From positions 1-28,821 of the IMG/VR virus record IMGVR_UViG_3300020395_000073: a stretch of 28,821 nt of DNA, one strand, 5' to 3'. This document shows positions 12,930 through 21,340 of this stretch, piece by piece. Source of the stretch: a virus. Every line of letters starts with the position of its first letter. Position 1 is the stretch's first letter. A model generated the notes under the pieces. It was not told the origin of the DNA. It did not search any database and saw nothing but the letters and a program-made list of their open reading frames with translations. The translations under genes were made by a program, and so were the position numbers.

Positions 12930-13242
12930 CGTCCGTTTCCTTGACTGCTGGCTGATACTTCTGATTGATGGCATCACCGACAGGCCTCAAACCGCCTTGC
13001 GATATACCGTCAGCAATGTTGTCTTTTGATTCGTAATCTCTCACCTCAGATATTGCTATGGATAAACTGTTGTCATCGTTTTCAAAGACTGCAACAGAAT
13101 ATCTTGAATCACCTCGCAAGTGTATGTCTGCTGGCGATCCATCTACAAATGGTTTCCAGTTACCATTGCCATGTGTGCCTCGCTTATGGTCATCATTTGG
13201 AAACACTTTGATTGTGGTAACTTTGATATATTTTCTAGCCAT
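12910..13242 (-). CDS. SSB-like protein with acidic DDDDIPF C-terminal tip
   Basis: 110 residues. Start at 13242 supported by AGGAG seven bases upstream and a one-base overlap with the annealase stop (TAATG). The last ten residues, KETDDDDIPF, match the acidic C-terminal tip by which bacterial and phage single-stranded-DNA-binding proteins recruit partner enzymes. The body (residues 1-70; KYIKVTTIKVF, GSPADIHLRGD, YSVAVFENDDNSLSIAISEV) is beta-rich and could be an OB-like or other small beta fold, but I do not recognise the usual SSB core. Residues 71-103 form a flexible linker. Role: coat ssDNA beside the annealase and exonuclease encoded just upstream. The tip is seen directly; the fold is inferred. 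Confidence 0.7.
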   Translation of the reverse strand: MARKYIKVTTIKVFPNDDHKRGTHGNGNWKPFVDGSPADIHLRGDSRYSVAVFENDDNSLSIAISEVRDYESKDNIADGISQGGLRPVGDAINQKYQPAVKETDDDDIPF

Positions 13243-13913
13243 TACGCCTCTCCTTTGAGTTGTTTCATTTTGAGTTGTATTCTATCAACAGCCATCTTTG
13301 CCAAGTCAGGGTTGTGTTGTCTCATATGGGCGATGCCATTCTTGACATGATCAGTGTTACACCAAGCAATAAAGTTACCTTTGTCAGTCACCTCACCAAC
13401 CTTTTTGTTGACCTCACCAAAAAAGTCTTGCGTCTTGCGTACTTCTGGATCGTCATCACGCTTGGCTGGCACAGGGTTTTCTGGGTCAACTACAGGCTTA
13501 TTCTCTGCTTCTGCCTGTGCCTCACGCTTACGGCCTACACCGTCCATCTCGTTGGCAGATGCGTACTCACCACCAGCTAGACCAATAGATGCAAGCGCAC
13601 GGCCTACAGCAGATGTCTCACAGTTCTCTAAGGCTGATGTCTGGTTGACATGGCCCTGACCTCTAATCTCTTCAGCCATGCCGGACCCGACAACTATGCC
13701 GTCAAGGTTTGTGATTGTAGCTTTGACAACTACACGCTGCCCATCATCAACAAGGATCTGTGTGTCCACGCCATACTCAGTACCATAGAACCGCCTAAAC
13801 GCTTCCATCCGATGCACTACCTGTGTGTACATCTTACCGCCACGTTGCTTCACGCCATGAGTTTTGTTTAGCTCATGCACAAAATCCATGACATCACTAA
13901 ACTTATTTGCCAT
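13242..13913 (-). CDS. Putative single-strand annealing recombinase (ERF/Rad52-like)
   Basis: 223 residues, with GGAG seven bases before the ATG. The core includes VVHRMEAFRRFYG (residues 30-42), beta strands VVVKATITN and IVVGSGMAEE, and then a highly characteristic TSALENCETSAVGRALASIG segment with GGEYASANE after it. This block is shared by many phage proteins next to exonuclease and SSB genes and related by profile methods to Rad52/ERF-type annealing proteins. A proline- and charge-rich linker follows (residues 128-165), then a C-terminal helical domain ending KMKQLKGEA that may contact partners. Likely role: anneal complementary ssDNA during phage recombination. Family assignment rests on motif memory plus context; it could be a related uncharacterised DUF. 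Confidence 0.68.
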   Translation of the reverse strand: MANKFSDVMDFVHELNKTHGVKQRGGKMYTQVVHRMEAFRRFYGTEYGVDTQILVDDGQRVVVKATITNLDGIVVGSGMAEEIRGQGHVNQTSALENCETSAVGRALASIGLAGGEYASANEMDGVGRKREAQAEAENKPVVDPENPVPAKRDDDPEVRKTQDFFGEVNKKVGEVTDKGNFIAWCNTDHVKNGIAHMRQHNPDLAKMAVDRIQLKMKQLKGEA

Positions 13914-14055
13914 TCTTTTTCTCCAACAATTCTTGAATTATTCTGATAGCATCTGTAAATTTCCTGATTTGATCATCCATCAATTTTTCAAGATGCTCGA
14001 TCCTATCCCCCATCACATCAATCCGCTGATGTATTTCCATTTCTGATTCAGTCAT
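13903..14055 (-). CDS. Small coiled-coil protein
   Basis: 50 residues, starting at the ATG at 14055, which lies inside the end of the upstream gene (eight-base overlap). The longer frame to 14133 is rejected because it would run through that gene. The sequence (MTESEMEIHQRIDVMGDRIE, then HLEKLMDDQIRKFTDAIRII and QELLEKKNGK) is one continuous amphipathic helix with heptad spacing and no cysteines. It probably oligomerises. It is translated just before the annealase, whose start it overlaps by eleven bases. No family is recognised. Confidence 0.6.
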   Translation of the reverse strand: MTESEMEIHQRIDVMGDRIEHLEKLMDDQIRKFTDAIRIIQELLEKKNGK

Positions 14056-16821: not shown

Positions 16822-17432
16822 ATTTAGATTTATGTGTCCAGCCAGCAACGATAGGTGATCTTAAATATATAGACCATTTACAAAGGAAAAACGCTGAAGA
16901 ATTAGCATTTTACCCTAATCAAGTTTTCGAGCGTGAAGTATCTAATCATAGAGTGTTGTTAGCAAAGGTAAACAGTGAGCCAGCAGGATATATTTATCAT
17001 GGTGCGCTTGGTCAAGTATGCAAGATTCATCAAGCCTGTATAGAGTATGACCTAAGAGGTCAGCTTTATGGGGCGGCTTTAATTAGAAATTTATTTTCAT
17101 TGGCTGATGCATCTAATGTTTTATCTATTACATTGCGTTGCGGCTCAGACATTGAAGCAAATATGTTTTGGAAAGCTATGGGTTTTTATTGCGAGGCTGT
17201 GACTGCTGGCGGTGTTCGTAGAATGAGAGACATAAATTGTTGGCGGTACGATTTACAGCAACCACTGTTCGTTATCAATCAAGAGCCTAGCGACAAAAAG
17301 AAAGATGCAAGCGTGTGGCAGAAAAGGAAATCATCTGCTGACAGTTCCTTTCAAAGAGGCAAGAAGATGCGTCAATATAGAGAAAAAATTTTAGCAGAGG
17401 CGATGGCAGATGGGCAAGAAAAGCAGAGATAA
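16818..17432 (+). CDS. GNAT-family acetyltransferase with basic C-terminal tail
   Basis: 204 residues from the ATG at 16818, which overlaps the methyltransferase stop by four bases (ATGA); an upstream start at 16770 would extend deep into that gene. The GNAT fold is indicated by HRVLLAKVNSEPAGYIYHG (strands 2-4), the acetyl-CoA loop LRGQLYGAAL (residues 79-88, Q-x-x-G-x-A), and ANMFWKAMGFY (strand/helix at about 115-125). Residues about 155-204 form an added lysine- and arginine-rich tail (KKKDASVWQKRKSS, RGKKMRQYREKI) not part of the usual fold. Substrate unknown; candidates include host proteins, a toxin-like target or a modified nucleobase made with the neighbouring methyltransferase. Confidence 0.78.
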   Translation: MNLDLCVQPATIGDLKYIDHLQRKNAEELAFYPNQVFEREVSNHRVLLAKVNSEPAGYIYHGALGQVCKIHQACIEYDLRGQLYGAALIRNLFSLADASNVLSITLRCGSDIEANMFWKAMGFYCEAVTAGGVRRMRDINCWRYDLQQPLFVINQEPSDKKKDASVWQKRKSSADSSFQRGKKMRQYREKILAEAMADGQEKQR

Positions 17433-17817
17433 AGGTGCGGCATTTGAACGATGGCTATGCAATGAGATAGATCAGCATCTAGGGTTCAAGCCGAAACGCA
17501 ATCTTTCTCAATACCAGACCAAGGGACAGCCAGATATTATCATACCTGGCTTTGCCATCGAGTGTAAGGCTTATGCCAAAGGTTACACGCATAAAGCAGA
17601 CTGGTGGGTACAAGCCTGTGAACAGGCTGGGGATAATGAGCCTGTGCTTGTGTATAAGTATGACTATCAAGAGCCAAGGGCCGTCATTTCTCTTTCAGTT
17701 ATCAACATTGATTACGACTATACGGGCATAACTTGCACTCTTTCTCTGCCAGATCTTTGGTACATCATCCGTGAAAAAATATCTGAACAGGGACTTGGCG
17801 AAGGCAAAAATATATGA
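17410..17817 (+). CDS. PD-(D/E)XK endonuclease, Holliday-junction-resolvase-like
   Basis: 135 residues overlapping the acetyltransferase by 23 bases in another frame, with GAGG nine bases before the ATG. The N terminus KKSRDKGAAFERWLCNEI supplies the conserved Glu13, followed by Asp42 in GQPDIIIPG and Glu51-x-Lys53 in FAIECKAYAKG: a complete E...D-8x-E-x-K nuclease signature. The layout and size match archaeal-type Hjc or phage junction resolvases and the VRR-NUC-like group. A probable function is cutting branched DNA before packaging. It is the last gene of the plus block, followed by a pyrimidine-tailed hairpin. A restriction-type nuclease paired with the methyltransferase is less likely but possible. 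Confidence 0.8.
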   Translation: MGKKSRDKGAAFERWLCNEIDQHLGFKPKRNLSQYQTKGQPDIIIPGFAIECKAYAKGYTHKADWWVQACEQAGDNEPVLVYKYDYQEPRAVISLSVINIDYDYTGITCTLSLPDLWYIIREKISEQGLGEGKNI

Positions 17818-17901: not shown

Positions 17902-17933
17902 AGCAATGCTCTGCATCATTGCAAAGCATTGCT
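17902..17933 (-). terminator. Strong intrinsic terminator of the leftward accessory operon
   Basis: Arms AGCAATGCT (17902-17910) and AGCATTGCT (17925-17933) are perfect complements. Inside, TGCA/TGCA pairs around a four-base TCAT loop after one C/A mismatch, giving about 13 pairs. On the minus strand the hairpin is followed directly by TTTTTTTATTTAT, a textbook intrinsic terminator, 30 bases after the last leftward gene. Confidence 0.88.
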
Positions 17934-17962
17934 ATGTGCCGTGCGGCATTGATATTTCTCTG

Positions 17963-18184
17963 CTAGTCTACGACTGCGTGTTTGATTCTTTTGTGAAGTT
18001 TTGTAGCAACCTCATCATTTACATCATAAATGTTTGCTCTGCCCTCTGGTGGAAACTTGCTTTCTCTCTCGCTTTTCCGTTTAGCCATTTTATTCTTTTG
18101 CTTAAATATAGACAAACTTCTGAGAAGAATGTTTCTCTCTTGTGAGGTAAGAATATTGAAGTTTATGGGATATGTATTCTGCAT
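17963..18184 (-). CDS. Small hypothetical protein, last gene of accessory block
   Basis: 73 residues, with AAGG nine bases before the ATG at 18184; an internal ATG at 18088 would give 41 residues. ILTSQERNILLRSLSIF near the N terminus forms an amphipathic helix, followed by a basic stretch (KMAKRKSERESKF) and an acidic helix. The C terminus, KHAVVD, nearly repeats the end of the next gene upstream (KHAVVE), and the DNA there matches at 16 of 17 bases. No family is recognised. It ends 30 bases before the operon terminator. Confidence 0.6.
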   Translation of the reverse strand: MQNTYPINFNILTSQERNILLRSLSIFKQKNKMAKRKSERESKFPPEGRANIYDVNDEVATKLHKRIKHAVVD

Positions 18185-18203
18185 TAGTTTGAGCCTTTCT
18201 CTT

Positions 18204-18395
18204 CTACTCTACAACTGCGTGTTTTTTATACAGCAGCACTAGAAGCTGCACTGGCTTGGGTATCTTTCTTTGACCATGTTCATAGTAAAACACTGCCCTC
18301 TCTGATACACCCAGTAGTTGACCAAATTGTTTAGCTGTAATTTTCAGCCTCTCTCTTTCGGCCTTAAATTCTTGTGGCGTCATTTCTTTATTCAT
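18204..18395 (-). CDS. XRE-type HTH regulator
   Basis: 63 residues with AAGGG five bases before the ATG. MTPQEFKAERERLKITAKQF, then GQLLGVSERAVFYYEHGQRK and IPKPVQLLVLLYK form an XRE-like helix-turn-helix; the AVFYYEHGQRKIP segment is the recognition helix and following loop. Such mini-repressors regulate phage or plasmid operons, and this one is encoded within the accessory block, so it may control it. It is distinct from the Cro-like protein at 15836. The last six codons are near-identical to those of the following gene. Confidence 0.78.
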   Translation of the reverse strand: MNKEMTPQEFKAERERLKITAKQFGQLLGVSERAVFYYEHGQRKIPKPVQLLVLLYKKHAVVE

Positions 18396-18483
18396 GTTAT
18401 CCCTTTCTCATAGGCCTTGATCCGCCTATGTTTGCTAGTATTGGGCGGCTAGGTAATCCAACGACTTAGCCGCCCTTTCTCTT
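18396..18483 (-). promoter_or_regulatory. Gap with two stem-loops and shared leader
   Basis: Reading leftward after the gene at 18484: a perfect 9-bp stem GGGCGGCTA/TAGCCGCCC (18443-18451 with 18467-18475, 15-base loop), then ACTAGCAAACA, a leader motif also used at 18780-18790, then a second stem CATAGGC/GCCTATG (18409-18415 with 18424-18430), then AAGGGAT and the next start codon. The first stem is followed by TTTCTCTTTT only on the plus strand, so it is not a convincing leftward terminator. Confidence 0.65.
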
Positions 18484-18771
18484 TTAACTTGCGATTTTTT
18501 CGTATTCTTTCCAAGTCATTGAACAAACTACAGCCCATTGACCACCAGCCAGATCCCAAATCATAGCTGCATGATAAGGCTGATCTAAAACTTTAAATGC
18601 GGTTAATGCCTCAAGCCTTGTTTCGTAAAACAGCATCATGGCTTGATCATCACTTAAAACATTTTTAGATTCTTTATGAATCTCAAACCGATCTTTCTGC
18701 TCTGAATAAAAGTTTTTACAGGCTGCATGAGATAGATCTAAAACATCCTGTATTGAGTATTCAATAATCAT
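18484..18771 (-). CDS. Hypothetical acidic protein of accessory block
   Basis: 95 residues, preceded by AGAAAGG in a leader sharing CTAGCAAAC with its neighbours. Mostly helical at the N terminus (YSIQDVLDLSHAACKNFY), with a central SDDQAMMLFYETRLEALTAF helix and a C-terminal aromatic part (AAMIWDLAGGQWAVVCSMTW). Two cysteines, no CxxC. No family recognised and no membrane segment. Its context among small regulator and accessory genes suggests a non-essential function. Confidence 0.62.
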   Translation of the reverse strand: MIIEYSIQDVLDLSHAACKNFYSEQKDRFEIHKESKNVLSDDQAMMLFYETRLEALTAFKVLDQPYHAAMIWDLAGGQWAVVCSMTWKEYEKIAS

Positions 18772-18892
18772 TATTAAAGCCTTTCTGTTTGCTAGTTATG
18801 CCATTGCTGGCGATTTAAACGCTGCTCAGCGTTTATCACTGCCTTGCCGGTAGGTATACACCAGACAAGGCAGTCATAAAAGCTGACGGGCT
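18772..18892 (-). promoter_or_regulatory. 121-nt gap with two perfect hairpins and leader
   Basis: Reading leftward: a 9-bp stem ACTGCCTTG/CAAGGCAGT (18838-18846 with 18866-18874, 19-base loop), then a second 9-bp stem TAAACGCTG/CAGCGTTTA with a two-base loop (18816-18835), then GCCA-GCAA-TGGC, then the CTAGCAAAC leader and ribosome site. No reading frame of note. These may stabilise mRNA ends or mark cassette boundaries; no T-run follows either stem. Confidence 0.65.
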
Positions 18893-18997
18893 TTAAATCA
18901 TCATTAAAACTGTGAAGCCCCATATTGTAAGAGCAAAGATAGCACCCACAAAAAAGTTTTCATGCTTGTTTAAAAAGTTGTTTATCTTTTTAAGCAT
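18893..18997 (-). CDS. 34-residue membrane micro-protein
   Basis: A short reading frame with ATG at 18997 and TAA ending at 18893. The ribosome site AAGGGG lies seven bases before the ATG, within the same GGGATCAA-like leader used by neighbouring genes and directly beyond the stop of the 246-residue gene. The product begins MLKKINNFLNKHENF, a positively charged segment, followed by one hydrophobic helix, FVGAIFALTIWGFTVLMMI, that reaches the C terminus. A single-pass N-in peptide of this kind could be a small membrane effector, such as a holin-like, superinfection-exclusion or toxin peptide. Function not known. Confidence 0.62.
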   Translation of the reverse strand: MLKKINNFLNKHENFFVGAIFALTIWGFTVLMMI

Positions 18998-19008
18998 TGT
19001 TGATCCCC

Positions 19009-19749
19009 TTACGCTGCAAAGTGTTTTGATCCATTGCCATGAACGACAATAGCAATGTTTTTAGCTTTTGTTTCTGATCCAGAACACAAGCCACACTTGA
19101 GGCAATTAGTTTTCTTTCCAGCCTCTTCACTTGCTGGACATAAGATTTCTTTACCCTTCACAATCTGATCAAGGCTTGTGATTGTTCTAAATGTCCTATG
19201 ACCAGACTGCCAAGCTTGCCTTGCCTCTTGTTCAGTGTCGGCAGACTGCATCATGATTGCTGGTTTAAATTCAGCAGATTTTAAGCTTTTTTGATGACTA
19301 TAGGCAGTATGACCAGCAGCGTCTGCTAGTAAAGATGACCAGATATAGCTTGGCACTGCTGCCGGATCTCCATAAGTACCAAGACGTACAAACCAACCTG
19401 ATCCCAACTCTCTGATCTGGTCATGGCCTTGTGCTGTCTCATATGATCCTACCTGTACATTTTTGAATACAATGTTAGGCCCATGCATCAAAGTGACATA
19501 GCAAGATCGATTTTTTGCGGTAGCACGATCCGGATCGTTATGTGATTCACCGCGATGGATGCAATCACCGCAGATCGAATAGTCAGATCCATTCTTGCTG
19601 TTTTCCATAGGTGATAGGCCGTTATCACACAAAATATACGTTTGCATCATTGCGCCTGTTTTTGTGTTCTTACTCTTGCCAGTTAATGCGACTACCACAA
19701 TTGGCGATCCGTCAATAAGTGATGGGCCTCTATAAATAATTTTAGACAT
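19009..19749 (-). CDS. DUF7227-like cysteine-rich protein
   Basis: 246 residues, largest gene in the accessory block; leader contains AAAGGGATCAATT before the ATG. Conserved-looking blocks are IYRGPSLIDGSPIVVVALTG (N terminus), YSICGDCIHRG (CxxC), SCYVTLMHGPNIVF, WFVRLGTYGDPAAVP, and a C-terminal cysteine cluster CPASEEAGKKTNCLKCGLC with IVVHGNGSKHFAA at the end. I recall this layout from a phage- and plasmid-borne family (DUF7227-like) of unknown function. The cysteines (CxxC plus C-x12-CxxCxxC) could bind zinc or an iron-sulfur cluster. The small membrane protein follows after 11 bases, so they are co-translated. Confidence 0.68.
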   Translation of the reverse strand: MSKIIYRGPSLIDGSPIVVVALTGKSKNTKTGAMMQTYILCDNGLSPMENSKNGSDYSICGDCIHRGESHNDPDRATAKNRSCYVTLMHGPNIVFKNVQVGSYETAQGHDQIRELGSGWFVRLGTYGDPAAVPSYIWSSLLADAAGHTAYSHQKSLKSAEFKPAIMMQSADTEQEARQAWQSGHRTFRTITSLDQIVKGKEILCPASEEAGKKTNCLKCGLCSGSETKAKNIAIVVHGNGSKHFAA

Positions 19750-19852
19750 AATTGATCCCTTTTGTCTGCTGTTGGCGGTATTGCCATTTCAATACCTTAT
19801 CAAGATATTGAAAAGGCAAGGCAGCGTGAAGCTGCCTAGCCATTTTTGTGTT
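19750..19852 (-). promoter_or_regulatory. 103-nt gap with two adjacent stem-loops and leader
   Basis: Reading leftward from the stop at 19853: a stem GGC-AGGCAGC paired with GCTGCCT-GCC around one A/A bulge (19815-19841), followed by CTTTTCAATAT; then TTTCAATA/TATTGAAA, extendable to ten pairs with one G-T (19787-19813); then GGCAATACCGCC and the ribosome leader. The first stem could be a weak leftward terminator or an mRNA-stabilising element. Confidence 0.68.
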
Positions 19853-20146
19853 TTATACTTCGTATTCTCTCCAATCATAGCCTTCTGGGTCGGCTAGGCT
19901 GTCCAAGTTAAACCACATGCCCCAATCACTGTTGACAGAATGTGATCCGTCTTCCCCTCGAATAAAGCCTAATGCGTCAGGCTTATATCCCTTGCTATGC
20001 TGCCACAAGAAAAACTTTTGATCTTTTGTGATAATGCCAGCTTTGCGGCAAAAGTCATTGAGCTTATCAATTCTGGACAACAACAGATCTTTATTTGATG
20101 TTTTTTCTATTTCAATCCAAATTCGTGATTGCTTTTTAAGTGTCAT
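19853..20146 (-). CDS. Hypothetical protein of accessory block
   Basis: 97 residues. Its leader is the first of two copies of a 25-base sequence that ends in the start codon. The N-terminal half is helical and basic (MTLKKQSRIWIEIEKTSNKD, DLLLSRIDKLNDFCRKAGI); the C-terminal half is aromatic and acidic (WQHSKGYKPDALGFIRGEDG, WGMWFNLDSLADPEGYDW). Possibly a small alpha/beta protein; no family recognised. It lies 24 bases after the preceding gene and before the 103-base structured gap. Confidence 0.6.
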   Translation of the reverse strand: MTLKKQSRIWIEIEKTSNKDLLLSRIDKLNDFCRKAGIITKDQKFFLWQHSKGYKPDALGFIRGEDGSHSVNSDWGMWFNLDSLADPEGYDWREYEV

Positions 20147-20168
20147 TGTTTTGATCCCTTCGTTTGCT
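20144..20168 (-). repeat. Shared translation leader, copy 1
   Basis: A 25-base sequence, including the start codon of the gene at 19853-20146, identical to 20624-20648. On the minus strand it reads AGCAAACGAAGGGATCAA followed by AACATG-like bases, giving ribosome site AAGGGA eight or so bases before ATG. Related, less exact copies precede the genes starting at 20898, 19749, 18997, 18771 and 18395. Confidence 0.85.
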
Positions 20169-20170
20169 GA

Positions 20171-20626
20171 TTAGTCATTAATAGTAAGATAGCCATAAGC
20201 CTCTTTTCCAGCTTGTTCATCTTCATCTTCTTCTGGATAGTAATGAGCTATATGTTCAGCTCTTATAGCGGCTATGGTCTGAGGCCATGCAGATGAATCT
20301 TTATTAGTTTGAGTCAACTGGTAACAAGCGATCAAGTGTTCACCAAATGCAGCGGCATCATGTAAGGCGTTCCCATAACTACGCAACCGATCAAACGTGC
20401 TACATTCTGCATAGCCGCCCGATGAAGTATGCATTTCCATATCTCCAGTCTTAACATTTACTTTACAGTTCAATGGGCCGCCGCTTTTCCAAAAGCCTTC
20501 GATTATATACGACCATTGAATCTCATCGATGTTTTCTGCGCCTTGATCGCCTGTTTCTGGAATTTCAGACAACCTGTTGCGTATTGATTGCGGATAGCTA
20601 TAAACCCTTTTAAATCCCCTAGACAT
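20171..20626 (-). CDS. Hypothetical protein of accessory block
   Basis: 151 residues, translated from the second copy of the shared leader. The N terminus is basic (MSRGFKRVYSYPQSIRNRLS), the middle contains WSYIIEGFWKSGGPLNCKVN and an MEMHTSSGGYAECSTFDR segment, then helices (NALHDAAAFGEHLIACYQLT) and a highly acidic EEDEDEQAGKEAY stretch before the end. Three cysteines without a clear metal motif. No recognised family and no membrane segment; probably a cytoplasmic accessory protein. Confidence 0.6.
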   Translation of the reverse strand: MSRGFKRVYSYPQSIRNRLSEIPETGDQGAENIDEIQWSYIIEGFWKSGGPLNCKVNVKTGDMEMHTSSGGYAECSTFDRLRSYGNALHDAAAFGEHLIACYQLTQTNKDSSAWPQTIAAIRAEHIAHYYPEEDEDEQAGKEAYGYLTIND

Positions 20627-20648
20627 TGTTTTGATCCCTTCGTTTGCT
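20624..20648 (-). repeat. Shared translation leader, copy 2
   Basis: Identical over 25 bases, including the start codon, to 20144-20168. It starts immediately after the stem-loop at the end of the gene at 20665-20898, showing the module order stop, hairpin, leader, start. Confidence 0.85.
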
Positions 20649-20652
20649 AATT

Positions 20653-20678
20653 GGATTGAGGCTGTTAAGCCTCAGTCC
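20653..20678. repeat. Stem-loop across a stop codon
   Basis: Left arm GGATTGAGGC (20653-20662) and right arm GCCTCAGTCC (20669-20678) pair over ten positions with one G-T/C-A position and a six-base loop. The stop codon of the gene at 20665-20898 lies inside it. It may protect or attenuate the leftward message. Confidence 0.65.
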
Positions 20679-20898
20679 ATTCCTCTATTGTCATTGTGAT
20701 TTCTTCCTCAGTGGCATTGTCTTGATATTTTAGAATTGCGCCTTTTAATGCGTACCATGCCCAACCAGAATAGTTATCTTTGCAAGGCAGCATGATTAAG
20801 GCGTTATTTGTTGAATAATCACCGCCAACCATCCATTTGCCACCGCTGTCTTTTTTGGCCTTCATCTTTGCGCCAAGGTGAAAAGCTTTGTATATCAT
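20665..20898 (-). CDS. Hypothetical protein, first gene of leftward accessory operon
   Basis: 77 residues, with AAAGGGATC ten to twelve bases before the ATG. N-terminal MIYKAFHLGAKMKAKKDSGG is basic, followed by KWMVGGDYSTNNALIMLPCK and a SGWAWYALKGAILKY strand-helix, then an acidic tail (TEEEITMTIEEWTEA). It is the gene nearest the promoter at 20988-21016, so it should be the most highly expressed of the block. No family recognised; small size and charge segregation fit an early phage host-takeover or inhibitor protein, which is only a guess. Confidence 0.6.
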   Translation of the reverse strand: MIYKAFHLGAKMKAKKDSGGKWMVGGDYSTNNALIMLPCKDNYSGWAWYALKGAILKYQDNATEEEITMTIEEWTEA

Positions 20899-20987
20899 CT
20901 TTTTTGATCCCTTTGATTCGGCGGCATTTTTCGCAGTTTTCCGCCAGTTTTGCTAGTTTGGCCCGTTTTTTGGCCGGTTTTTTTCAG

Positions 20988-21016
20988 TATATAATGAACA
21001 ATGGTCAAATAGTCAA
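20988..21016 (-). promoter_or_regulatory. Sigma70-type promoter for the leftward accessory operon
   Basis: On the minus strand: TTGACT (-35; 21016-21011), 17-base spacer, then TATATA (-10; 20993-20988). The -35 differs from consensus at one base; the -10 matches at four of six and the spacing is ideal. Transcription would begin near 20981, leaving a leader of about 80 bases before the first ATG. Confidence 0.72.
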
Positions 21017-21061
21017 GCATAAAAATATATGATATTAAATAATGCATACATTGATTAGCAA

Positions 21062-21223
21062 ACATTGCTCACAATTTAAGGCAAACATTACCCACATTAT
21101 TATGCAGACATTGCAGCTGGATCAGTCAGGTTTATTTTTGATTGATTGGTGTTGGATTTTCACAAAACTTTCACAGACAAACACACATTGCTTTACGCGG
21201 CACTGCATAGCCATCAACATTGC
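21062..21223 (+). repeat. Iteron-like ACATTGC direct repeats
   Basis: Four exact copies of ACATTGC in the same orientation at 21062, 21108, 21185 and 21217, with near copies (ACATTGA at 21048). The copy at 21185 is followed by GCGGCA and CTGCA, an order also found at 17835-17858 on the far side of the accessory block. Spacing is irregular. Confidence 0.5.
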
Positions 21224-21340
21224 TTGTCATGTTGCTATGGGGGGTGCTGCAAAACGGCGTCACACCCAAAACCGCGCACCACTCTACATATGTGTTAATT
21301 ACTACATTTACACACACAGTCTGAATGACTATGTTAAGGC

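Follow-up and report, generated by a model that had tools for sequence, protein, structure and literature searches.

Spacers and leaders as candidate sockets for exchanged genes in the accessory block of a podovirus-type phage

How can small accessory genes be exchanged between phages while their expression is kept? The question is raised by a leftward block of eight small genes in the IMG/VR virus record IMGVR_UViG_3300020395_000073, of which the whole stretch of 28,821 nucleotides, here called the window, was analysed. An earlier note on this DNA had described the block as a possibly recombination-prone locus with one promoter, one terminator and recurring hairpins and leaders. This observation is partly confirmed here and largely real. 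The terL of the window is 50.9% identical to that of HTVC010P, and the phages Greip and Lederberg carry a leftward small-gene block at the same place. The HTVC010P-type phage group shares this terminase type, with an accessory small-gene block beside it. The phages are probably marine, a description that rests on relatedness to pelagiphages, and a host and prophage search returned one weak MAG match only.

The features of the block are collected in Table 1. The single promoter at its head is borne out on the minus strand, as a site of the form TTGAC[AT]-N15-18-TA[TG] lies within 480 nt of the start of the block in 28 of 43 compared blocks, including that of the window, against 1.2 expected. 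A generic promoter scan of the window did not list this site. Between positions 14000 and 25000, 22 promoter-like sites stand against 23.5 expected by chance, and thus nothing points to a promoter for each gene. The strong terminator is also present, at 17933 to 17902.

Table 1. Features of the leftward block, with positions in the window
Feature	Position	Strand	Remark
Promoter, sigma70-like	20988..21016	-	TTGACT-17 nt-TATATA in sequence
A77 leader	20899..20913	-	GGGATCAA part only
A77	20665..20898	-	among loci searched, in the window's own locus only
B151 leader	20627..20648	-	AGCAAACGAAGGGATCAAAACA
B151	20171..20626	-	ORF
C97 leader	20147..20168	-	22 nt same as B151 leader
C97	19853..20146	-	weak phrog_12905 match, E 0.003
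Spacer 1, three-way junction	19774..19841	-	GGC, two hairpins, GCC; C97-D246 gap z -4.8
D246 leader	19750..19770	-	AGCAGACAAAAGGGATCAATT
D246	19009..19749	-	DUF7227/phrog_2554; present in 147 phage records
E34	18893..18997	-	34-aa protein, one hydrophobic stretch
Spacer 2 (H2), pseudoknot-like RNA	18799..18897	-	E34-F95 gap z -5.0; covariation; model match 85.1 bits
F95 leader	18772..18793	-	AGCAAACAGAAAGGCTTTAATA
F95	18484..18771	-	family f11 among shuffled set
Spacer 3, first hairpin	18443..18475	-	F95-G63 gap z -4.5; inverted repeat I12
Spacer 3, second hairpin	18409..18430	-	leader motif GGATCAA displayed in loop
G63	18204..18395	-	Xre/Cro-type HTH protein, family f0
H73	17963..18184	-	window only among loci searched
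Intrinsic terminator, end of block	17902..17933	-	14-bp stem and T-run

The comparison set consists of 43 blocks, namely that of the window and 42 from relatives, of which 25 are complete; near-copies (L003/L004, L029/L030, L063-L065/L068) are partly retained in the counts. Genes were called with a simple model of our own, which missed the HTH gene of L022, and the HTH family of G63 was called in 24 of the 25 complete blocks. Across the set, the flanks are constant and the genes are swapped, with gene families in changing order. The terS and terL DNA of the window is 95.8-97.4% identical to that of L009 and L011-L014, while the block aligns over 4-31% only, L009 and L013 holding it in part. 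For L011, L012 and L014, the terminase DNA is 95.8-97.2% identical and 17-31% of the block is in common. D246 has its own history, since its DNA is 88.0% identical in L003 and 84.6% identical over the 46% held in L013, opposed to terminase identities of 80.1% and 96.7%, respectively. Within eight group-1 blocks, homology ends at most 10 nt from a start codon in 94 of 181 cases (11.4 expected) and starts at most 10 nt from a stop codon in 106 of 172 (10.7 expected). The near-identical terminases, the limited sharing and the breakpoints at start and stop codons support the proposal of an accessory block that is prone to recombination and has recurring spacers and leaders, in a phage of podovirus type. 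A reading frame at 13242-13913, once labelled Erf, was dropped as the phage recombinase, as family, structure and similarity to the Greip annealing protein lent it no support, and the same three comparisons gave no recombinase of the phage's own.

The leaders had been described as variants of one sequence at most start codons. GGGATCAA precedes five of the eight window genes (A77, B151, C97, D246 and E34), and AGCAAAC or AGCAGAC also precedes five (B151, C97, D246, F95 and G63). The tandem arrangement is confined to B151, C97 and D246, and H73 is without either part. Upstream of B151 and C97, the two stretches share 97% identity over 29 nt. An exact scan of IMG/VR for the leader of the window, AGCAAACGAAGGGATCAA, returned no stretches, and relatives have variants of it.

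Comparison with other genes of the same genomes indicates that the leader is specific to the block, in group 1 to a far greater degree than their other ribosome sites. In group 1, the motif GG[AG]?ATCAA precedes 40 of 54 block genes and none of 107 others. The group 2 motif GGAATCAA precedes 11 of 38 block genes versus 0 of 46 others, and the group 6 motif GGATCA[AG] 23 of 45 versus 0 of 92. This tabulation covers groups 1, 2 and 6, with groups 3, 4 and 5 left out. Here and in the other leader comparisons, leaders were omitted if their gene has a call score below 20 or starts less than 330 nt into the block. Control genes were taken from the first ATG of ORFs of at least 70 aa, so that some of their starts may be misassigned. 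The ribosome part of the leader varies in groups 3 and 4. Neither of the findings named beforehand as fatal to the cassette idea, a fixed gene order and an ordinary leader, was obtained.

Leader type follows phage lineage. Leader types agree in 444 of 921 comparisons (0.482) at a terminase identity of at least 97%, and in 3531 of 16693 (0.212) below 85%; none of 500 permutations of the genome labels gave an effect as large. Raw leader similarity had been tried as a measure of whether the leader follows its genome, in genomes with at least four leaders, and was mixed: leaders of the same genome were closer than the orthologue's leader from a different clade in 90 of 224 cases, less close in 126 and equal in 8. 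Motif classes took the place of this measure, followed by terminase identity. The motif-class clades were set by eye after the leaders were seen, a circularity from which terminase identity is free; in 31 of 33 cases, the nearest terminase neighbour belongs to the same clade.

The interpretation in the earlier note is partly supported. It had the hairpin and leader moving with their gene as a cassette; for this part support is lacking, as leader type tracks lineage and one spacer precedes different genes in different blocks. From the constant flanks, the breakpoints at start and stop codons and the block- and lineage-specific leader, it follows that the socket formed by spacer and leader is retained and that the ORFs are what changes. 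The cassette is in this way turned round, with the socket kept and the ORF exchanged from start to stop codon. It would provide a concrete rule for the exchange of small accessory genes with expression kept.

Four gaps of the block had been reported to contain one to three stem-loops, with a recurring order of stop, hairpin, leader, start. Three of the seven window gaps (C97-D246, E34-F95 and F95-G63) are strongly structured, with z of -4.5 to -5.0 from 300 dinucleotide shuffles per gap, the folded gaps being offset by one base. The stretch behind H73 that contains the terminator is a fourth structured stretch (z -4.5). The other four gaps have no structured spacer: those with the best leaders, ahead of B151 and C97, are unstructured (z +0.5 and +0.1), and the remaining two are shorter than 20 nt. 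The order therefore stands for three genes and not for most. Across blocks, z falls below -2 in 43 of 55 distinct gaps with a length of 50-180 nt, versus 6 of 94 coding stretches. The three structured spacers of the window are unlike one another, and the block hairpins are not one motif but at least four kinds of RNA, with predicted hammerhead ribozymes among them in relatives. An Rfam search of the window with E up to 5 gave three chance-like matches and nothing convincing.

Spacer 1 occupies the position held by hammerhead ribozymes in some relatives. It was ruled out as a hammerhead itself, as the core is absent. At a score cut of 20, chosen after weaker matches (14-18) had appeared on both strands, several of them inside terminase genes, 14 three-way junctions were found on the block strand, 0 on the opposite strand and 0 in three Markov replicates of the 43 blocks. 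The distance from junction to ATG is 24-31 nt for 12 of the 14. Searched alone in Rfam, the junction had a best match of E 0.047 on the opposite strand (18.5 of 84 bits).

The second spacer, H2, also occurs in many IMG/VR phage contigs. It shows strong covariation with compensatory changes in 22 copies, which were picked from 42 non-redundant contexts because a long stem is common to them; among the remaining 20 are chance matches and forms with a short stem. Helix 4 and part of helix 3 are imposed by the search pattern, the structure was derived from the same sequences, and of five shuffle measures the one for further pair types is unremarkable (70/500). H2 has no Rfam family (best E 1.1 for the copy of L231). 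The window is one of the sequences of the H2 model, which matches well in group 1 only (84.7-88.2 bits). It gives 19-25 bits on L023, L036, L043 and L052, and no match up to E 1 in other clade members; it also hits the opposite strand of several copies with 28-45 bits, as hairpins do. H2 is an RNA element with clear covariation and a candidate for cleavage. A small membrane ORF ahead of H2 was dropped as a general rule, as 26 of 62 contexts pass the hydropathy cut.

The third spacer bears on a different explanation, in which the leader is mainly a translation signal for a trans-acting factor, perhaps G63, the HTH protein of the block, or an RNA-binding protein specific to the lineage, and the structured spacers modulate it. 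Such a factor would suit a leader motif that is specific to block and lineage. Furthermore, the hairpin before the G63 family displays GGATCA in its loop in clade 1 (4/4 rows), clade 6 (5/5) and clade 5 (1/2). The same search found it in 0 of 10 rows in clades 2, 3 and 4, HTH_3 proteins usually bind DNA, and the hammerheads would be left unexplained. This explanation is very unlikely.

Hammerheads with an intact core, defined as CUGANGA, GAAA and UH joined by three helices, number 16 in 90 loci (15 in loci of the terminase group and one in L007), versus 2 in six Markov replicates. Some are near-copies (L076, L080, L082 and L083; L028, L043 and L059), and the window has none by the same core scan. 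A gene was called behind 13 hammerheads, and 11 of these lie 29-33 nt from the ATG. In Rfam, the L061 element matches Hammerhead_II with 25.8 bits (E 0.0016 on a 171-base stretch), below the gathering score of 37, and that of L023 reaches 23.3 of 56.3 and 17.4 of 34, also below gathering; a scan of 20 loci gave no family at gathering score. The hammerheads of relatives are predicted ribozymes, from which cleavage in the cell is inferred.

These elements weigh on two simpler explanations. One holds that the spacers are recombination linkers only, kept for gene exchange in the manner proposed for boundary sequences or PeSL, and that their RNA structure arises incidentally from DNA that is palindromic or terminator-like. 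Homology does end at spacer edges and different genes do lie behind the same spacer, but hammerhead cores, compensatory changes in H2, a near-constant distance to the ATG and the restriction of junctions to one strand are features of RNA, and linkers alone are unlikely. The other is an ordinary compact phage operon, with strong ribosome sites and stability hairpins that are alike by descent and composition. Some leaders are indeed plain AGAAAGG-type ribosome sites, and the unstructured B151 and C97 gaps fit as well. The confinement of the group-1 motif to block genes, the codon precision of the breakpoints and the Markov controls have already disfavoured this operon, which is highly improbable.

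The preferred reading, held with a probability of about 0.6, is an accessory operon of sockets in which the spacers cut or shape a polycistronic mRNA and each gene obtains its own 5' end and leader. A socket would consist of an A-rich leader, about 20-33 nt long and with a lineage-specific extended ribosome site, which is preceded in some gaps by a structured RNA. Related phages would exchange ORFs from start to stop codon, with spacers and leaders remaining, and the repeated spacers may also provide short homology for the exchange. The structured RNAs most likely act on the transcript. The hammerheads of relatives would cut the polycistronic mRNA just ahead of the leader, leaving a hairpin near the new 5' end, and the junction and H2 of the window, at an equivalent place, probably do the same job. 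Possible routes for these two are self-cleavage, recruitment of a nuclease such as RNase III or RNase E, or protection of the new 5' end. Each foreign ORF would in this manner be given its own mRNA end and a leader functional in this phage. The sockets would then mark where fast-changing, possibly host-targeting genes can be gathered. H2 and the junction were compared with pistol, twister and hatchet by eye. That the two represent new RNA classes, self-cleaving or processing, which replace hammerheads in the same socket, is quite unlikely; if true, accessory operons would run with a set of interchangeable RNA cutters.

Several known systems resemble this arrangement. In T7 early mRNA, RNase III sites between the early genes yield single-gene mRNAs. 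These sites share structured RNA between genes with the present block, and differ from it in the predicted ribozymes of relatives, the gene swapping and the lineage-specific leaders. T4-type PeSL are promoter-stem-loop cassettes (PMC4503421). They and the present block both have short regulatory spacers where small genes shuffle, with breakpoints at the spacer in the eight group-1 blocks; here, no promoter is evident for each cassette, a ribosome leader stands in its place, and ribozymes are predicted among the RNA elements of relatives.

SAS and ESAS leaders occur in Cluster K mycobacteriophages (PMC3203893) and Cluster EF Microbacterium phages (PMC7302621). The likeness lies in a repeated extended ribosome-site leader before many starts, with genes of differing families, and, for SAS, in its rarity at other starts. 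The systems differ in sequence, host and phage type, and several RNA classes, one with compensatory changes, occur here. The 13-bp GGGATAGGAGCCC of Cluster K is absent from the eight window leaders on reading, where GGGATCAA and variants stand instead. About half of the Cluster K SAS leaders have inverted repeats in front (PMC3203893); unlike there, the window has differing spacers and no single conserved 17-bp inverted repeat before its leaders. The ESAS authors find little support for mRNA hairpins, and the mycobacteriophage literature leaves a trans-acting factor for SAS open.

Prophage hammerheads flank single genes, and they were proposed to process long phage transcripts into mRNAs the length of an operon or of a gene (Perreault et al. 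2011, PMC3088659). That survey leaves their purpose open, and the present work ties phage hammerheads to gene turnover in an HTVC010P-related group. As there, type I and type II elements lie between genes, and some phages have several in succession, with seven in L100 among the matches listed, in a listing of at least 120 stretches. Unlike there, a lineage-specific leader follows, ORFs are swapped at codon precision, as seen in group 1, itself without a hammerhead, and the position is shared with another RNA class in related phages. The f8 family lies behind type I (L023, L038), type II (L061) and a junction (L079), and the f13 family behind type II (L028) and a junction (L029, L030).

The window is a complete IMG/VR virus record of 28,821 bases. 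Among its products are a Phage_capsid_2 head protein, a Head-tail_con portal, a tail tubular protein and a terminase, whose large subunit shares 50.9% identity with that of pelagiphage HTVC010P. The G+C content of the window is 43%, compared with 30-34% in stretches of three HTVC010P-type isolates. The block comprises eight genes on the minus strand, A77 to H73 (letters follow transcription order, numbers give length in amino acids). A PHROGs and Pfam search of seven of them (all but the 34-aa E34) gave clear matches for D246 (DUF7227, phrog_2554) and G63 (HTH_3), and a weak match only for C97. The promoter and terminator named in the earlier note are both present. That note had also described a two-part leader before most starts and structured gaps. 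GGGATCAA precedes five of the eight starts, as does AGCAAAC or AGCAGAC, but the tandem of both occurs before three genes only; of the seven gaps, three show strong structure (z -4.8, -5.0 and -4.5), two show none and two are shorter than 20 nt. The hairpin/leader pattern is therefore real, yet less regular than had been stated.

Features of the block, its flanks and compared phages
Feature	Sequence	Positions	Strand	Remark
RusA/PDDEXK-like gene	window	17410-17817	+	flanks block on one side
terS	window	starts 21341	+	flanks block on other side
Hairpin with motif in loop	window	18409-18430		before f0 gene
H2	window	18799-18897	-	covariation, model
Small ORF with one hydrophobic stretch	window	18893-18997		precedes H2
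Three-way junction	window	19774-19841	-	pattern scan
AATGTTTGC / GCAAACATT repeats	window	21042-21224		between terS and block promoter
Junction resembling H2	L003	9882-9977		H2 model
Type II hammerhead	L007	11249-11304		high-G+C phage with D246
Leaders TAACACTTAC...AAAGGGAAC	L092 (CRP-403)	39483-40475		before gp51, gp52 (DUF7227), and third copy

For comparison, the best 80 of 484 loci from a terminase search were kept, and 43 blocks of at least 900 nt, 25 of them complete, were cut from these, from D246 loci and from the window. Gene families return in varying combinations across the 43 blocks. Gene calling picked up the HTH family f0, that of G63, in 24 of 25 complete blocks, and the family can be seen in the remaining one, L022, as well. 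Three loci with terS+terL DNA 96.5%, 97.2% and 95.8% identical to the window (L011, L012, L014) have no more than 25%, 17% and 31% of the block in common with it; for L009 and L013, both of which hold the block partially, the values are 97.4% and 96.7%, with 4% and 12% shared. D246 DNA is 88.0% identical in L003 (terminase 80.1%), compared with 84.6% over 46% of the gene in L013 (terminase 96.7%). Since D246 is closer in L003 and the terminase in L013, these identities point to independent transfer of D246. The phage collection contains D246 relatives in 147 records.

The boundaries of exchange were located in eight blocks of group 1, the lineage of the window, from internal ends and starts of homology, with a uniform spread as expectation. 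A start codon lies within 10 nt of the homology end in 94 of 181 cases (11.4 expected), and a stop codon within 10 nt of the homology start in 106 of 172 (10.7 expected); counted as distinct sites, the figures are 52 of 115 and 58 of 104. L014 and L019 have in common a 103-nt spacer (91% identity), reaching from 6-8 nt past one stop to 3 nt inside the next gene; the gene after it is of a different family in each of the two. In group 1, the spacer is therefore kept and the ORF exchanged.

The leader is specific to the block. In group 1, 40 of 54 block genes have the motif GG[AG]?ATCAA in front of them, as against 0 of 107 genes elsewhere in these genomes; the counts are 11 of 38 versus 0 of 46 for GGAATCAA in group 2, and 23 of 45 versus 0 of 92 for GGATCA[AG] in group 6. 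Instead of a fixed ribosome part, groups 3 and 4 have an upstream CACTAGC in common (8 of 24 and 25 of 54). Mean leader similarity is higher for block genes than for other genes in all 23 genomes with both computed. Pairs of leaders from different gene families have the same motif class in 444 of 921 cases (0.482) at terminase identity of at least 97%, versus 3531 of 16693 (0.212) below 85%, a difference matched in 0 of 500 permutations of genome labels. Where families are shared between clades (21 of them), the agreement between different families of one clade is 0.490 and that within one family in different clades 0.201, versus 0.257 and 0.256 in shuffles. Judged by motif class, leader type thus goes mainly with the phage lineage; a cruder leader-similarity measure gave a mixed answer (90 for, 126 against and 8 equal, of 224).

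Something similar is seen in the cultured Roseobacter phage CRP-403, in which TAACACTTAC-type leaders precede gp51 and the DUF7227 gene gp52, and a third, less similar copy stands behind gp52, before an ATG without an annotated gene. Greip, Lederberg and HTVC010P have a small-gene block at the same place; by eye, none has a long leader of this kind, and Greip repeats only AAGGGGAAAAT and Lederberg only AAGGGAAACA, each before two starts. Eight blocks (L009, L011-L014, L018, L019 and the window) carry one or two exact copies each of the AATGTTTGC / GCAAACATT repeats in their heads; the other 35 have none. The repeats are a possible operator for an HTH protein.

Most spacers are structured: among gaps of 50-180 nt in all blocks, 43 of 55 distinct ones have z below -2 (median -3.46), versus 6 of 94 coding stretches (median -0.58). 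Four kinds of RNA are clear, namely hammerheads, a three-way junction, the pseudoknot-like H2 and a double hairpin before G63. The second loop of the double hairpin displays the leader motif, as is the case in 4 of 4 rows of clade 1, 5 of 5 of clade 6 and 1 of 2 of clade 5 (10 of 11 in total), and in 0 of 10 rows before the HTH gene in clades 2-4. It is as if the HTH gene were autoregulated. In the window and L061, L063, L069, L079, L080 and L082, the loop before f0 carries the clade's own motif (GGATCAA or GGATCAG), on stems unrelated to each other.

Scanned on both strands for an intact hammerhead core with three helices, 90 loci (951 kb) yielded 16 copies, 5 of type I and 11 of type II, versus 2 in six Markov replicates; group 1, window included, has none. 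Fifteen lie on the block strand of terminase-group loci; the other lies about 500 nt behind D246 in L007, another phage. Rfam gave no match at gathering scores in 20 loci. On short stretches it returned Hammerhead_II for L061 (25.8 bits, E 0.0016, gathering 37), and RAGATH-1-hammerhead (23.3 bits, E 0.027, gathering 56.3) and Hammerhead_1 (17.4 bits, E 0.051, gathering 34) for L023. Among the IMG/VR pattern matches listed, L100, L108, L116, L132 and L166 each have a row of 3-7 type II hammerheads in one phage stretch, at spacings of a few hundred bases or above.

A tail N'UCAG is able to pair with the core CUGANGA of type II hammerheads. Among 116 distinct copies with a GGCC stem II, taken from the IMG/VR pattern matches listed and the group loci, the tail lies within 9 nt in 44 and is absent in 72; at a control offset it was present in 4 of 117. 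N pairs with N' in 43 of the 44 (C-G 32, U-A 11), some of which are closely related, so that the independent cases are fewer. Covarying examples are L098, L109, L110 and L069. By eye, the stretch after the cut in the five type I copies is UGUC-AUAA-GACA or a paired variant. The N'UCAG hairpin is possibly formed by refolding after cleavage; a hairpin arising at that stage could prevent re-ligation and cap the new 5' end.

The junction pattern (GGC or GGT, a hairpin, a longer hairpin, 4-6 nt, GCC) occurs 14 times on the block strand of the 43 blocks, and never on the other strand or in three Markov replicates. Type I hammerheads (L023, L038), a type II hammerhead (L061) and a junction (L079) all occur in front of family f8, which in L052 has no long gap before it (26 nt); f13 follows a type II hammerhead (L028) and junctions (L029, L030). 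Measured from the end of the element, the ATG is 29-33 nt away in 11 of the 13 hammerheads for which a downstream gene was called, and 24-31 nt away in 12 of 14 junctions; start calls are doubtful in the outliers (59 and 105, and 279 and 233). By gene families and distances, hammerheads and junction look interchangeable. In Perreault et al. 2011 (PMC3088659), clustered hammerheads flank single prophage genes and transcript processing is proposed. Mainly because the elements look interchangeable, we infer that the window's spacer elements are processing sites too.

SAS/ESAS leaders (PMC3203893, PMC7302621) are the nearest known leader system and PeSLs (via PMC4503421) the nearest known gene-shuffling system. 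What is new is that codon-precise exchange of ORFs is joined with a leader specific to the lineage and with RNA classes that look interchangeable; among the open-licence papers listed in literature searches, none deals with this combination in HTVC010P-type phages, going by titles and the opening lines of abstracts.

H2 is likewise new. An Rfam search gave chance-like matches only. In 22 copies, picked for a long stem from 42 non-redundant contexts, 97.0% of pair cells hold standard pairs and both sides change in 14 of 23 pairs. The covariation score is 0.472, versus 0.196 in shuffles, 0 of 500 of which reached it; slid versions gave no more than 0.127. In the pseudoknot, helix 15-19:74-78 crosses helix 68-72:84-88. 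Among the clades compared, the H2 model scores strongly in group 1 only (84.7-88.2 bits, 6 loci) and reaches 19-25 bits in L023, L036, L043 and L052; with it, L242 and L259 each show two same-strand copies. Blocks of clades 1-5 carry a similar 3' motif at the corresponding place, and a pattern for this part matched 76 IMG/VR stretches, a few evidently by chance. The L003 junction gives a weak hit to the H2 model (29.5 bits, E 0.002), hinting that junction and H2 may be related. A small ORF with one hydrophobic stretch often directly precedes H2 (26 of 62 contexts by hydropathy), its sequence unlike between clades.
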